The notes under the pieces are model-generated. The model saw nothing but the letters and a program-made list of their open reading frames with translations. It did not search any database and had not been told where the DNA came from. DNA of 64,000 nt from contig JAKFUG010000035.1 in NCBI GenBank assembly GCA_021732785.1, positions 1 through 64,000 of the forward strand, given 5' to 3'. Within the stretch, counting starts at the first letter, position 1. The number at the start of each line of letters is the position of its first letter. The translations under genes were made by a program, and so were the position numbers. The DNA is from Planctomycetaceae bacterium. GTDB lineage: Bacteria > Planctomycetota > Planctomycetia > Planctomycetales > Planctomycetaceae. This document shows positions 8,886 through 16,451 of the stretch, in pieces.

Positions 8886-9809
8886 TTAGGGCTGCCCATG
8901 GTGACGCAGCACCATCGTATATTCGGGATTCTCGGCGTCGCCGCCGCGCACGATCAGGATGTGATGGTCAGCACCGCCGTCGCGCAGCGCCTGCCGCAGC
9001 TTTGAGAGCGCCTTCCGGACCCGCTGGCTGACGAGTGGGAACTCGTCAGCATTCTGGACGCGATCGGTTTCAAACGCGTCCAGCGCACGCTGGACCTCGC
9101 CGAGGGAACAGGCGCGACCGACCGGTGAGGCGAGCAGCCAAAAGAGTCGGCTGATCTGTGTGTCGTTTCCCAGGTAGACACGTTTTCCCGCGCACCGCAC
9201 GATCCTCGGATCATGCTCGTCGCGGCGAAAACTGGCGTTGCCGGCCGACGTCGTCTTCGTTTGAACGGTCGGTGGGTTGCCAGCCTGAATCGGCAATTTG
9301 CCGCGGGCGATCTGAATCCGCAAGACCTCACGCTTCGCCCACGCGATGGCCCAGCGGTAGACCTCTTCCAGCGTCAACGGCCCCGGCTCTTTCTCCACCA
9401 GCCGTGCCAGGTCTTCCCACGCCTGCAGGTCATTCCCCGGCGACTCGAATCCGTGCGCCGTCAGATCGGCCTCCACCGTCCCCTGCGACGATTCGATCTC
9501 TCGCGCCATTTCCGCGAACACCCGTTGTTGCTCGGCTCGCAGTTCGGCGAGTTCCGACAGCACGGCCTGCTGCGGTTCCGCTGACGCCGCACGAAAATCT
9601 GTGTCGACGTCGGTCAACACGCGGTACAACAGATCCAGCGCCTCGCGCTGCGATCTGCCGAACTTCCGGATGTCTTGGGCCAACATCCGCAACTTGGCCA
9701 GCACCTGCGTCAGGCACCGTTGGGCTTGGGGATCGTCGGCGATGGCGGCCAGGTACGCCTCGCCGGTCCGGATTGGTCGCTGTGTTCCGTTCTGCTCATT
9801 CATGGACAT
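8886..9809 (-). CDS. Element-encoded protein with C-terminal winged-helix-like domain (putative regulator)
   Basis: 307 residues and no family recognised over the N-terminal two thirds, which is helical and rich in Glu, Gln and Arg (about residues 50-130 could be coiled coil). The C-terminal about 110 residues look like an OmpR-type winged helix: RIVRCAGKRVYLGND, ISRLFWLLASPVGRACSLGE, VSQRVRKALSKLRQAL and ILIVRGGDAENPEYTMVLR follow the strand, helix, recognition-helix and hairpin order. It is transcribed away from the excisionase-like gene at 10029 and is the leftmost gene of the element. I infer a transcriptional regulator of the element; this is not proven. Confidence 0.55.
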   Translation of the reverse strand: MSMNEQNGTQRPIRTGEAYLAAIADDPQAQRCLTQVLAKLRMLAQDIRKFGRSQREALDLLYRVLTDVDTDFRAASAEPQQAVLSELAELRAEQQRVFAEMAREIESSQGTVEADLTAHGFESPGNDLQAWEDLARLVEKEPGPLTLEEVYRWAIAWAKREVLRIQIARGKLPIQAGNPPTVQTKTTSAGNASFRRDEHDPRIVRCAGKRVYLGNDTQISRLFWLLASPVGRACSLGEVQRALDAFETDRVQNADEFPLVSQRVRKALSKLRQALRDGGADHHILIVRGGDAENPEYTMVLRHHGQP

Positions 9810-10028: not shown

Positions 10029-10274
10029 ATGACTGATCCCGAAACAATGCTGACCGTCGGAGAGATTGCTCGGCGACTCGGCCGGGCGCTGCACCGGGTT
10101 GAGTACATCATCCGCTCGCGGAGCATTCGGCCTGCGAGCTGGGCCGGCCACGCCCGCGTGTTCCGCGACACCGACCTTGTACGGATCGCGTCCGAATTCG
10201 ACCGGATAGACCACGATCGCACCACCAATTCCGTGAACTCTGATCACAGGGAGGGCCGTGATCATGACGCATGA
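10029..10274 (+). CDS. MerR/excisionase-like small DNA-binding protein
   Basis: 81 residues. The segment MLTVGEIARRLGRALHRVEY, then IIRSRSIRPASWAGHARVFR, matches the winged helix-turn-helix of MerR/excisionase-type proteins, in which the turn-helix is followed by a tyrosine- or phenylalanine-rich wing. The ATG at 10029 has a purine-rich AAAAAAAGGGGACG upstream. Its 3' end overlaps the primase start (ATG 10264) by 11 bases, so the two are translated together. It probably regulates or directs excision or replication of the element. Confidence 0.65.
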   Translation: MTDPETMLTVGEIARRLGRALHRVEYIIRSRSIRPASWAGHARVFRDTDLVRIASEFDRIDHDRTTNSVNSDHREGRDHDA

Positions 10275-12595
10275 CGAATCGGTCAATCAGGAAGTCAGCG
10301 CGGCTCGGCAAGCCGCCAACCGGTATCTGGAACGCGGCTGGTCCGTCATCCCCGTTCCGCACCGCAGCAAGAATCCCGGGTTCAAACGCTGGGAGCAGAT
10401 GCGGCTCACAACCGAAATGCTGGACCAGCACTTCCCCGGCCGGCCACAGAATATCAGTGTGTTGCTGGGTGAGCCGTCGTGATGGTTGATCGATGTTGAC
10501 CTCGATCACGCGCGGGCGGTGGAACTGGCACCACAATTCCTGCCGTCGACACCGCTGGTGTTCGGTCGGCCCGGGAAGCCGCGTTCGCATTGGCTGTATC
10601 GCGTTACGGCGCCGCTCGTCACCAGAAAGTTTTCCAGCCGGTCATCGGGCATGATCGTCGAGGTGCGTTCGACCGGTGCGCACACCGTCTTTCCGCCCAG
10701 CACACACGAACAGGGCGAACCCATCACCTGGGAGGACGAAGCTCAGGAACCGGCGGAAGTCGATCCCGAGTTCCTGTTGGACAGCGCGTCTCGACTGGCC
10801 AATACGGTGCTCGTCGAACTGGGTGAAAAACGTCCGGTGCGGGAGCGAAAGAAGCCTTCGGCAGCTCATCAAGAATCGCCGGAGCCAACTACACCCACGC
10901 CCATCGTGCCTGAAGACCGTGCCGCACGCTGTCTGGCGGCCATGCTACGGATCAAGATCGTCGATCAGCACGACGGCTCGCGGCGTCTGTTCGCAGTCGC
11001 GTGCCGCACTGTGGAACATGATCTCGACGACGCCCTGGCCGTGGCCACGATCCGCGAATACGCCCGCCAGCGCCCGTTTTCAAAGGACTGGGACGATATC
11101 GAGATCTTGAAGCGTCTCCGGGATGCCGAAACCCATTGCCGGCGCGGCGAGGCCTTGGAATTGGGGGCTGACGGTTGCGTCCCGCTGGGGCAGCGGGAAC
11201 CGCAGTCCGGCAAGCTGGTCCTGTCCCCCACGCGAACCCTGCCGACGGCCGAGGCCTTCGTGCGGGAGTTCCACCTGCACCCCGATGGTCGCATGATCCA
11301 CTGTTACGCCGGCGTCCTGAGCCAGTGGCAAGACAATCGCTACTGCGAACTGGAAGACAACGCCGTCAATAAACAGTTGCACGTCTGGCTGCACGATGCG
11401 CTATGTCGTCCATCGCGGCACCGGAGAACTGCAATTGGTGGACTTCCAATCCAACCCGTCCACGGTGAAGTCAGCCTTGGAATCGATCAGGGCACTGGTG
11501 CATCTGCCATCCACAACGCTCTGCCCGTCGTGGCTGGATGGCGGTTCGATCCGACCAGCTCCCAGCGAGATCGTCGCCTGCCGGTCACTGCTCTTGCACT
11601 TGCCCACGCTGCGACGTCTGCCACCGACGCCCATGTTCTTCTCAACCTGCGCGCTCGACTTCGATCCCGATCCCAACGCCCCTAACCCAACCGCCTGGTA
11701 CACCTTTTTGCACCAACTGTTCGACGGCGACCTGAAATCGCTTGATCTCCTGCAGGAATGGTTTGGTTACTGCCTGACCGGCGATACCTCGCAGCAGAAA
11801 ATGATGCTGATGGTCGGCCCGAAACGCAGCGGCAAGGGAACCATCGCGCGGGTGCTCGCCCAATTGATCGGCGCGGGCAACATCTGCGGCCCAACAACTT
11901 CGAGCCTGGCGGGGCCATTCGGCCTGCAACCGCTGATTGGCAAGAGCCTGGCGATTGTCAGCGACGCCCGCTTCCATGGTGAAAACATTGCCACGGTGGT
12001 GGAACGCCTGCTGTGCATCAGCGGCGAAGACACGCTCACGGTCGATCGGAAACACAAGACCAGTGTGACGCTAAAGCTGCCCACCCGCTTCATGTTTCTG
12101 ACCAATGAGTTCCCGCGACTCACAGACGCGAGCGGCGCATTGGCTGGCCGATTCGTCATCTTGCGGCTCACCGAGAGCTTCTATGGCAAGGAGGACACCG
12201 GGTTGACCAACCGTCTGCTGGGCGAATTGCCCGGCATCCTGAACTGGTCCATCGAGGGCTGGCGGCGACTGCACGAGCGGGGACATTTCGTCGTGCCGTC
12301 CAGCGTGACGGACGTGGTGCAAGAAATCGAGGATCTGTCGTCGCCCGTCGCGGCGTTCGTCCGTGCCGAGTGCGTCGTCGGCCCCGGACGACGCGTCTGG
12401 GTCGAAAACCTATACGACGCCTGGAAACTCTGGTGCGAACGGGAAGGCCGCACGCTCGTCAGCACGAAACAGGCTTTTGGACGCGATCTCGCCGCTGCGG
12501 TCTCTGGCATTTCTCGCCGCCGAGGCACGAGTGATATGCCGTTCTACGAAGGCATCGAACTGAAAGGAGTCGTTTTATGGTCGGATCAACCGTAA
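10264..12595 (+). pseudogene. Primase-polymerase / SF3 helicase of an integrative element, broken by a TGA and a frameshift
   Basis: The frame starts at ATG 10264 behind GGGAGGG. The bifunctional primase-polymerase domain begins with RYLERGWSVIPVPHRSKNPG and continues through ISVLLGEPS to a TGA at 10480-10482, then in the same frame WLIDVDLDHA (the acidic D-x-D site), GRPGKPRSHWLY and VRSTGAHTVFPPS. The family normally reads GEPSGW here, so GGA to TGA is the likely change. The frame runs to 11685, but similarity shifts by +1 near 11395-11400 (HVWLHDAL / RYVVHRGTGELQL). It then gives a D5/P4-type helicase with Walker A GPKRSGKGT, Walker B LAIVSDARF, FMFLTNEFPR and LAGRF, ending at 12595. Sequencing error for both lesions cannot be excluded, but the recombinase of the same element is also broken. 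Confidence 0.85.
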
Positions 12596-12945
12596 CGCAC
12601 CGTCGCACAACCGTCGCGATGCCGTTGGAGTGTGCGACGGTACCTGGGCCTTGTGCCCCAAAGACTTACGAGCGCACCGTCGCATACCGTCACGATGTTC
12701 CAAGTTATGACACGCGTGCGGGCGCGCACACGCGAGAAGAACTTGGCGAGCAATGGGAACCGTCGCGACGGTGCGCGACGGTAGATGTCGGAATTCGGCT
12801 GGGGCATAGGTACTTCCCCGGAAGATAGGCAATCTGAGGCCATTGGGAACCGTCGCCATGGTGAGCAGAGTTTGTTTCGCACGTCCGGATTTTCAGGGGC
12901 TTTGTGCCAACATATTTCAAGGACTGATGTTGCATCGGAGGTTCT
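12596..12945. repeat. Gene-free region with nine copies of ACCGTCGC/GCGACGGT (iteron-like, candidate origin)
   Basis: No convincing gene lies here. Copies of the 8-mer are at 12599, 12610, 12676, 12686 (variant ACCGTCAC), 12759 and 12849 on the plus strand, and at 12634, 12765 and 12775 on the minus strand. Copies 12759 and 12765 overlap to form the perfect 14-base palindrome ACCGTCGCGACGGT. The copies at 12759 and 12849 share a longer context (TGGGAACCGTCGC). Chance would give far fewer than one copy in 260 bases. Position directly behind the primase-helicase gene suggests an origin of replication of the element or an array of regulator sites. Confidence 0.65.
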
Positions 12946-13724: not shown

Positions 13725-14180
13725 TCAGATCTTGAAGAGTTCGGAGACCGACTTGGGACCGGGAGTTCCGTCCGCGATCTCGGTCTGGTCCGTCTTCTTC
13801 TTGGCGGCCTTCTTGCCCGTGGCCTTCGCGGCGGGATTGATCGGGGAGCTGGTTCCCGTCGCCAGCGCGAAGTGCCCGCGTTCGGTCTTGGTGAACCGGG
13901 CGTCGGCCCCCTTGGTCTGGATCTCCCGCAGGATGGCGGCGTAGAGCGTGGCCTGCGGCGTCTTGCCACCGGGGCTGGTCCAGTACCCCTTCGCGGCCAT
14001 CGCGTCGATCATCTCCTTCGAGGTCATCGGCTCACTGGATTCCGCCAGCACCTTCGCCGCCGCGTCGAGGGCGCTCAGTTTGCCGGGAACCTTCTCCCTG
14101 GCGGTCTTCTTGGTTTTCACGGGCTTGGCCTTGGCCTGGGTCTTGGGGGCCTTCTTGGTCGTGGTCTTCTTCGTCGACAT
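13725..14180 (-). CDS. HARE-HTH domain protein with Lys-rich histone-like tails
   Basis: 151 residues. The middle (about residues 35-108) matches the HARE-HTH winged-helix domain: LSALDAAAKVLAESSEPMTS, KEMIDAMAAKGYW, GKTPQATLYAAILREI and ADARFTKTERGHFAL. Both ends are basic and repetitive (MSTKKTTTKKAPKTQAKAK and KATGKKAAKKKTDQ), like histone H1 or bacterial Hc1-type tails. HARE-HTH domains are known from chromatin proteins, RNA polymerase delta subunits and restriction systems, and are thought to link to DNA. Here it lies in the minus-strand operon of the integrative element. A DNA-coating or regulatory role is an inference. Confidence 0.75.
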   Translation of the reverse strand: MSTKKTTTKKAPKTQAKAKPVKTKKTAREKVPGKLSALDAAAKVLAESSEPMTSKEMIDAMAAKGYWTSPGGKTPQATLYAAILREIQTKGADARFTKTERGHFALATGTSSPINPAAKATGKKAAKKKTDQTEIADGTPGPKSVSELFKI

Positions 14181-14642: not shown

Positions 14643-14861
14643 ATGCCCACCATCGTTGATCCGTGTTCTGTCCATACGGATGAGTGCCGCCGTGAAGTTG
14701 CGATGCTGCTCGCCCGCGCCGTGATGCGGTGTCGCCGAACCATAGGCGGAACGCCTGAGAACGGCCCAACGAATCTCGCGAGTTTCGGAAACCGCTCAGA
14801 ACTCTCGTCCCGTGGCCTTGAGGTTGTGGGCCAGTCGAGGCTCAGTGTCCACGCGGGTTAA
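14643..14861 (+). CDS. Small conserved-looking protein upstream of DUF2924
   Basis: 72 residues starting at ATG 14643 with GGAG six bases upstream. The sequence MPTIVDPCSVHTDECRREVA then LLARAVMRCRR and the end RGLEVVGQSRLSVHAG have the look of small proteins that accompany DUF2924 and recombinase genes in planctomycete elements; this likeness is from memory, not a search. Two cysteines (8 and 15) could bind a metal. It is 31 bases before the DUF2924 gene, in the same direction. Function unknown. Confidence 0.6.
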   Translation: MPTIVDPCSVHTDECRREVAMLLARAVMRCRRTIGGTPENGPTNLASFGNRSELSSRGLEVVGQSRLSVHAG

Positions 14862-14892
14862 TCCACGGAGACCTCAAACACGGGAGATGCAC

Positions 14893-15390
14893 ATGACGTT
14901 GAATGTTGGAAAAGAACTGGCGGCGCTCGAACGGATGAGCGTCGGCGAACTACGGGAGCGGTATGTGGAACTGTTCCAGGAGACGACGCACGCCCGAAAC
15001 CGGAAGTGGCTGATCAAGCGAATCATCTGGCGGATGCAGTCGCTCGAGCACGGGGGCCTGTCGAATCGTGCTCTCGAACGGGCCACAGAACTGGCCGGTT
15101 CGAGTGACCTCCGGGTCACCGCACCGCGTGATTCCCAGCCTGCCACGGAGACCGCAGCGTCCACCAGAACGGTTGCCTGCCGGATCGACGGGGCGTCCCG
15201 CACCCCGCTTCCGGGCACGCTGATCACCCGCACCTACAAGGGCCAATTGATTCAGGTGCAGGTGCTGGCGAATGGGTTTGAGTACCAGGGCGACGTGTAC
15301 CGGTCGCTCAGCGCCGTCGCCAAGCAGATCACCGGCTCGCACTGGAATGGCTTCAAGTTCTTCAACCTTCAGCAAACAGGAGAGGTCTGA
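14893..15390 (+). CDS. DUF2924 domain-containing protein
   Basis: 165 residues from the ATG at 14893 (GGGAG six bases before; another ATG at 14887 is too close to it). DUF2924 marks are seen in order: [55 protein letters not shown] and [20 protein letters not shown] followed by HWNGFKFF. Such proteins are almost always next to a site-specific serine recombinase, and this one overlaps the recombinase start by one base (TGATG at 15388-15392), so translation is coupled. Its role in recombination is unproven; the C-terminal part looks like a small nucleic-acid-binding beta domain. Confidence 0.85.
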
Positions 15391-15920
15391 TGTCCCGCAA
15401 GACCACCAAGACCGAGCCTTCGACCGTGCGGTGTGCCATCTACACCCGCAAGAGCACGGAAGAGGGGCTCGAACAGGAATTCAATTCGCTTGATGCCCAG
15501 CGGGAGTCGGGTGAGGCGTTCATCGCCTCTCAGCGGCACGAAGGCTGGCAGTGCCTCCCCGAACACTACGACGACGGCGGCTTTACCGGCGGCAACATGG
15601 ACCGGCCGGCGCTCCAGCGGCTGCTCGCCGACATCGCCGCCGGAAAGGTCGACTGCGTTGTGGTCTACAAGGTCGACCGCCTCAGTCGCAGCCCGCTCGA
15701 CTTTGCCAGGATGATGGAAGTGTTTGAACAGCACCGGGTGTCGTTCGTGTCGGTAACCCAGCAGTTCAACACCGCCAGTTCCATGGGTCGGCTGGTGCTC
15801 AACGTTTTACTGTCGTTCGCCCAGTTCGAACGGGAGATGATCAGCGAGCGGGTCCGTGACAAGATCGCCGCCTCACGCCGCAAGGGAAAGTGGTCGGGCG
15901 GGATGCCACTCCTCGGTTAG
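15390..15920 (+). pseudogene. Serine recombinase truncated to its N-terminal catalytic domain
   Basis: 176 residues. The resolvase domain is complete: [20 protein letters not shown] contains the nucleophile serine, then [50 protein letters not shown] and [20 protein letters not shown]. The normal protein continues after GMPLLG with YDV and about 300 more residues (recombinase and zinc-ribbon domains). Here a TAG follows at 15918-15920, and the next 170 bases show none of the missing domains. It is therefore a large serine recombinase reduced by deletion. Without the DNA-binding part it should not integrate or excise the element. Confidence 0.85.
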
Positions 15921-16096
15921 ACGGACTCAACCGTTCGATTCGGCGGTCTCCGCGAGAAAACAGAGAGCGCCATCTTCAAGCGGCAAACGACGCAACCACT
16001 TGCACGACTTGCGGATAACTCGCGGTCCCCGACGACCGCCAATTTGACCCCGAGAGCTAACGGCGGTGTCGCTCGGAGTTCGAGAAAGAAAAGAAA

Positions 16097-16170
16097 TACG
16101 CCCGGAGGGATTCGAACCCCCGACCGGTGGATTAGAAATCCACTGCTCTATCCTACTGAGCTACGGGCGC
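16097..16170 (-). tRNA. tRNA-Arg (anticodon TCT)
   Basis: On the minus strand, from 16170, the sequence folds as a cloverleaf. The acceptor GCGCCCG pairs with CGGGCGT (last pair G-U), the D arm is GCTC with GAGC, and the anticodon arm GTGGA/TCCAC has loop TTTCTAA (anticodon TCT). The T arm is GGGGG-TTCGAAT-CCCTC. Length is 74 bases without encoded CCA. It lies about 180 bases beyond the truncated recombinase, at the right flank of the element. I found no second copy of its 3' end at the left flank. Confidence 0.93.
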
Positions 16171-16451
16171 AAACTCTGACGCGATCATCCGTTCCGGAAA
16201 CTCAACATCCTTCGCCACCTTGGAGTTAAAGGGATGTTGTTGCGCCGAAATGACGGTCAACAGTATCGGTGGCAACTCGGGTTCGTGCAAGCTGGCGCGA
16301 AATGACAAGATCTTCCTACCCAGCTTGCGGGTTCGCGCTTCGTGAGGATGGCTTCCCCGTGTCGGCGATCACTGCGTCAATCTGCGCGAGGCGCGAAACC
16401 GCACAGCGCGATTGTGGCCCCGGAATTCACCGACGAACACGGTTCCAGAGA

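Follow-up and report, generated by a model that had tools for sequence, protein, structure and literature searches.

The window analysed here is a 64,000-nt stretch of a contig from a Planctomycetaceae bacterium, and the region of interest is an array of short repeats between a primase-helicase gene and a gene for a MarR-like winged-helix protein (12946). The genes and protein domains of the surrounding element are:

8886 to 9809, reverse strand: probable element regulator gene (307 aa), first in the conserved gene order
10029 to 10274, forward strand: small helix-turn-helix protein, excisionase/regulator-like (Pfam HTH_17, below its cut-off)
10264 to 12595, forward strand: broken prim-pol / SF3 helicase / winged-helix initiator gene (PF09250, DUF5906/Pox_D5, PHROG DNA primases)
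12335 to 12580, forward strand: C-terminal RFX-like winged-helix domain of the initiator (from hmmsearch, an AlphaFold model and covariation with the motif)
12506 to 12559, forward strand: wing of the winged helix (helicase residues about 371-388), within the C-terminal domain
14812 to 15390, forward strand: DUF2924 gene, recombinase partner (PF11149, E=1e-41; same order in loci L193, L194 and L228)
15390 to 15920, forward strand: serine recombinase, only the catalytic domain left (PF00239, phrog_95)

The order regulator (reverse), HTH protein, prim-pol-helicase, array, DUF2924 protein and serine recombinase is common to L193, L194 and L228, three elements in other planctomycete genomes. Homologues of the regulator (43-53% identity) lie at the same relative place in these three loci and in L196, and homologues of the HTH protein (52-73% identity) lie upstream of prim-pol in L192, L193, L194, L196, L200 and L228. 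The window differs in that genes 12946, 13428 (reverse) and 13725 (reverse) stand between the array and the DUF2924 gene. The last of these encodes a HARE-HTH protein (13725-14180, reverse), and many relatives (L036, L037, L130, L195, L199 and others) have a homologue of it 2-5 kb downstream of the array.

Compared with the intact relatives L035, L036 and L088, the prim-pol gene is interrupted by an in-frame TGA (10480-10482) and shifts frame near 11,400; the initial annotation of this DNA, made from the letters alone, had named the gene a primase-helicase, which is right as to identity but not as to intactness. The serine recombinase, which at full length has 511-522 aa in L193, L194 and L228, is truncated. 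Because of the internal stop and frameshift in the one gene and the truncation of the other, we read the element as the relic of an integrative element of compact type, with a replication module that tailed phages also have. The suggestion of a satellite or ICE family was thus borne out as to an integrative element and not as to the label. A plain prophage reading was revised once L193, L194 and L228 showed the same compact order beside chromosomal-looking genes (sigma factor, Uma2, helicase). No terminase, portal or capsid gene was found among the genes tested between 8886 and 15920. Related replication modules occur in phage-like contigs, L035 having terminase and portal genes, and the L036 contig, which carries a related module, has a serine integrase and a ParB-methyltransferase.

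A search for direct repeats marking the element ends gave none that were convincing, and an empty-site comparison with genomes of the same genus gave no clean junction. A tRNA-Arg(TCT) gene (16096-16171, reverse) lies just beyond the truncated recombinase; an att repeat was looked for there and none was found. An Rfam search returned tRNA-Arg alone, and PADLOC gave marginal hits only, probably the zinc ribbon. The same genome holds a second helicase of the family (G000:C9:91049-92200, L087; 39% identity), with an 878-aa open frame and no array after its stop.

The helicase gene ends with a TAA stop at 12593-12595, and the first repeat begins 4 bases beyond it. The array region can be divided into the following parts:

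12599 to 12693, forward strand: left iteron set, ACCGTCGC at 12599+, 12610+, 12634- and 12676+ and ACCGTCAC at 12686+
12646 to 12672, no strand assigned: conserved box within the left iteron set (GGGCCTTGTGCCCCAAAGACTTACGAG), a GACTTAC box in L192, L193, L194, L196 and L228
12705 to 12758, no strand assigned: core between the iteron sets, an alternating purine-pyrimidine tract and the conserved GCAATGGGA
12759 to 12782, reverse strand: right iteron set, the palindrome ACCGTCGCGACGGT and the reverse copy at 12775
12849 to 12856, forward strand: outlying forward copy, with degenerate copies at the same place in relatives

In all, nine copies lie within 258 bp (12599-12856), six forward and three reverse. 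Eight are exact copies of ACCGTCGC (12599+, 12610+, 12634-, 12676+, 12759+, 12765-, 12775-, 12849+), and the ninth is the variant ACCGTCAC. The sequence ACCGTCGCGACGGT (12759-12772) is a perfect 14-bp palindrome. Every one of these features as first annotated (nine repeats with one variant, their orientations, the 14-base palindrome and the 4-base gap after the stop) was found again.

A pattern search of both strands of the 6,691,477-bp genome found ACCGTCGC 900 times, or 1 per 7.4 kb, so that 0.035 copies are expected per 258 bp and the probability of 8 or more is 5e-17 per window of that size; with all positions counted, the chance of such a cluster anywhere in the genome is about 3e-10. The palindrome has a single exact occurrence in the whole 6.69-Mb genome. 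Only two other same-strand pairs of ACCGTCGC at most 16 bases apart exist genome-wide, neither belonging to an array, and elsewhere in the first 30 kb of the window no 8-mer occurs more than 3 times in any 350-bp segment. The repeat is thus not equally dense elsewhere in the genome; equal density was the outcome named beforehand as telling against an origin.

The initial annotation had also proposed looking for clustered repeats behind prim-pol genes in other planctomycete genomes. We gathered helicase homologues from genomes of the same family, viral contigs, species genomes, phages and plasmids, which gave 191 non-redundant loci, and scored an array where an 8-mer was repeated at least 4 times (exact) in the 350 bases after the helicase stop. 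Arrays were present in 28/44 loci at ≥60% helicase identity, in 10 of 35 at 50-60% and in 35 of 62 at 40-50%, and 74 of these 141 loci reached the lowest possible shuffle p. The position directly 3' of the helicase stands out both in comparison with shuffled sequence and relative to other windows of those loci. The repeat spelling is the same in the closest relatives and differs from element to element further out: ACCGTCGC itself occurs 12 times in L192, 6 times in L193 and 7 times in L196, L194 has 7 copies of ACCGTCAC, and other relatives carry ACTGTCGC, AGTCCCGC, AGTACCGC, TGTACCGC, TGGCACGC, ACGTCCGC, TGGTCCGC and more. Related elements therefore do have arrays at this place, where their general absence would have weakened the proposal.

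Fewer than 4 exact copies were found in 16 of the 44 loci at ≥60% identity, some of which hold degenerate arrays. With one mismatch allowed, some seemingly empty loci regain an array (e.g. L197) and others stay empty. No array was detected in many distant relatives, and none lies downstream of the helicase in the two phages of the same helicase family that were examined, Dryad and R9Y2. Repeat clusters occur elsewhere in two loci, ACTCACCG five times about 360 bases before the helicase stop in L044 and CTAGGGAC six times about 900 bases after it in L083; these are perhaps displaced arrays.

The close relatives also share a layout: on the left a set of sites spaced by about 10 bases, most of them forward, then the core, then the palindrome and reverse sites. 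If orientation is judged purely by what the motif contains, 45 of 57 loci begin with a forward site and 40 of 57 end with a reverse one. In alignments of close relatives both the GACTTAC box and GCAATGGGA are kept, GGACTTATGG in L216 being the counterpart of the left-set box, and the right-set block ACCGTCGCGACGGTGCGCGACGGTAG is kept in L192 and L196 and, with one change, in L193. The left-set box (12646-12672) reads GGCCTTG.GCC..AAGACTTAC in the closest relatives and could be a host-factor site.

The core is distinguished by its alternation of purines and pyrimidines. The tract at about 12709-12734 scores 16, whereas none of 579 control windows exceeds 12, and in the window and many relatives it is unmatched by any control window of the same locus; it falls in the top 5% of its own locus in 40 of 71 array-bearing loci, compared with 8 of 45 array-less loci. 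It is not AT-rich (20% AT); the core as a whole has 42% AT and the window 40%. Among the 40-mers of the region, the one richest in AT (60%, a level reached by ~1% of window 40-mers) sits downstream of the array. A hairpin was considered as the conserved core feature and dropped, since folding z-scores were inconsistent across loci (-2.5 in the window, near zero or positive in many relatives); the alternation was taken instead. Downstream of the array, at 12866-12895, a GCACAGTTTGTTTCGATTGTCCGAATTT-like sequence is kept in L196, L035, L197 and partly L192; it may be a promoter or belong to the origin.

Two circular actinobacterial records have the same two-set arrangement and a similar core, with 11 copies of CCTGAACA in Streptomyces virginiae (NZ_CP108186) and 11 of GCGGGGCC in Pseudonocardia (NZ_CP053567). 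On both, prim-pol and its helicase are the sole annotated replication genes. The S. virginiae record (NZ_CP108186.1, L272) is a satellite-like circular plasmid of 16 kb that carries genes for prim-pol, helicase and integrase as well as one of a terminase family; no capsid gene is annotated on it.

What might recognise the repeats is suggested by the C-terminal domain of the helicase, which matches the RFX5/RFX1 DNA-binding domain by hmmsearch. An AlphaFold model of the helicase (mean pLDDT 88) places the wing at residues about 373-389, and the wing of RFX1 reads the DNA major groove (PMC4333399). The closest solved fold is that of the SaPI5 primase-helicase (Z 28 over 342 residues), and the sequence matches 7ola with E=4e-33. 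Wing similarity predicts motif similarity with the ATPase domain controlled (partial Mantel r 0.29, p=0.0005; a smaller set agrees), in a type of test that is liberal and can be inflated by phylogeny. By the same liberal measure a signal comes from part of the ATPase domain too (its second half, with the first half controlled, has a partial r of 0.28); it is absent from the disjoint-pair test, the one to weigh. There, among 158 sliding windows compared over 31 disjoint nearest pairs, the eight highest-ranking ones are all located at 358-389. A scan of all protein columns, in which the motif register was seeded with the pattern WSNNNCGC, ranked wing residues 380 and 382 best, with 374, 377 and 378 also in the top ten. 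Examples of the pairings are RRG[T/A] with ACCGT/ACTGT, RRN[R/Q/K] with AGTCC/AGTAC, RRHSIQ with TGTAC, and TQPR with TGGCA.

The common layout, the wing-motif covariation and the SaPI5-like fold together support the view that the array is an iteron origin bound by the helicase itself. Predicted fold and covariation agree on an SF3 initiator with a C-terminal iteron-binding domain, a trait of SaPIs and PICIs, the binding being a prediction. We conclude that the stretch from 12596 to about 12890 is very probably an iteron ori, that of a compact integrative element which has decayed in this genome, in support of the first proposal of an iteron-type ori behind the primase-helicase of an integrative element. 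Against this conclusion stand the core that is not AT-rich, the 16 close loci short of four exact copies and the array-less second helicase.

We infer the following course of events. The serine recombinase would first excise the element. The prim-pol/SF3-helicase protein would then use its C-terminal RFX-like winged helix to bind the 8-bp iterons that follow its own gene, with the wing reading the variable half of the iteron beside a more constant CGC anchor common to the family. With sites converging on the alternating core, two helicase rings could load in head-to-head orientation, open the core or the DNA next to it and prime bidirectional replication. Because motif and wing are particular to each element and match each other, an initiator would act chiefly on the origin of its own element. 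Since its own initiator is broken, the origin in this genome could fire only with an initiator from a relative.

Other functions for the array were weighed against the same data. The alternative offered by the initial annotation was an operator, the MarR-like protein 12946 binding ACCGTCGC to regulate itself or the prim-pol operon. The array does end upstream of the GTG start of 12946, which has a plausible ribosome-binding site, and inverted copies can occur in operators. However, in more than 250 helicase-bearing loci the protein has no homologue apart from one weak match (L094, 732 bases downstream), although the array is kept; nine copies over 258 bp with a conserved core are too large for the usual MarR operator, and the motif varies together with the helicase wing. 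We therefore disfavour the operator and consider it very unlikely. That same covariation, with motif changes tracking the helicase wing, also speaks against a binding, attachment or accessory site of the serine recombinase or its DUF2924 partner. The recombinase gene does lie ~2.8 kb downstream in the same element, yet the array adjoins the helicase and not the recombinase, and plasmids whose integrase is an unrelated tyrosine enzyme have the array too, so that a recombinase site seems extremely improbable.

A third possibility leaves the initiator in place and changes the role of the array, which would be an initiator-bound region for replication control or incompatibility (handcuffing, copy number), with melting elsewhere, for example at the AT-richer 12889-12928 or upstream of the gene. 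Phage P4 has iterons at both ori and crr, and the position of the most AT-rich 40-mer downstream of the array would fit. Against it, the origins of SaPIs, PICIs and pRN1 all lie directly 3' of the initiator gene, and no second array is visible in most loci; we regard a pure control region as unlikely.

Beyond this locus, the iteron-origin reading suggests a broader proposal, which we put forward tentatively and at slightly under even chances: that planctomycete elements, tailed phages and actinobacterial plasmids form a broad replicon class with one origin design, in which WSNNN-CGC iterons converge on an alternating purine-pyrimidine core and an RFX-like wing reads NNN by a simple residue-to-base code that keeps initiators private. 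If this is true, such a code could be worked out from sequences found in nature, and opening of the core might not depend on AT-rich melting. How initiators come to be specific for their origins is a long-standing question, and with so many motif-wing pairs occurring naturally it can be tested directly. The layout also offers a ready means of locating origins and sorting elements into compatibility groups in uncultured bacteria, and might serve as a starting point for planctomycete vectors.

Several known replication systems resemble the one described here. In pRN1, ORF904 likewise joins an AEP prim-pol, an SF3 helicase and a winged helix, with an essential origin just downstream of its gene (PMC4234260). 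That origin is a 100-bp stem-loop without iterons, and its authors argued for stem-loops rather than iterons in this protein class (PMC4234260); here, in contrast, there are clear iterons, and a hairpin that is weak or inconsistent. The alpha protein of phage P4, as cited in PMC4234260, is also a multifunctional primase-helicase whose C-terminal winged helix binds origin repeats, but its primase is of the Toprim type (PMC4234260), unlike the AEP prim-pol (PF09250) found here. In SCCmec, the C-terminal domain of the D5-type helicase Cch2 binds direct repeats in a putative origin downstream of its gene, in the cch2-ccrC intergenic region (PMC7581432); it differs in having three 5-bp repeats and separate polymerase-primase genes. 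Streptococcus thermophilus phage Sfi21 can be likened by description, having a short noncoding replication-module element with origin properties (PMC6356513 citing Foley 1998).

The closest likeness is to the rep-ori of SaPIs and PICIs (SaPI5 PriRep, EcCICFT073 pri-rep-ori), and the initial comparison with SaPIs holds at the level of fold and layout. There too the origin follows immediately 3' of the gene for an SF3 initiator helicase, a central region has a set of short iterons on either side, and the motif is private to each element (PMC6092414, PMC7581432). The C-terminal domain of SaPI Rep is known to recognise iterons directly downstream of the helicase gene (PMC7581432), which is matched here by the similarity of fold. 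The SaPI/PICI central region is AT-rich, whereas here it is the GC-rich alternating tract, and the hosts here are Planctomycetota, relatives being present in Pseudomonadota, Actinomycetota and other groups as well. The surroundings of the array element showed no PICI hallmark genes, and a Pfam search, in which absence is weak evidence, recognised no PICI induction, packaging or interference genes around L193, L194 and L228. By analogy, then, the system appears to work like a SaPI rep-ori in AEP prim-pol elements with a different core, and we do not file it as a PICI. The PICI study called such an origin layout unique to PICIs; it is now seen also in planctomycete elements and phages and in actinobacterial plasmids, and this occurrence outside PICIs makes it likely that the design is older and more widespread among AEP/SF3 replicons.
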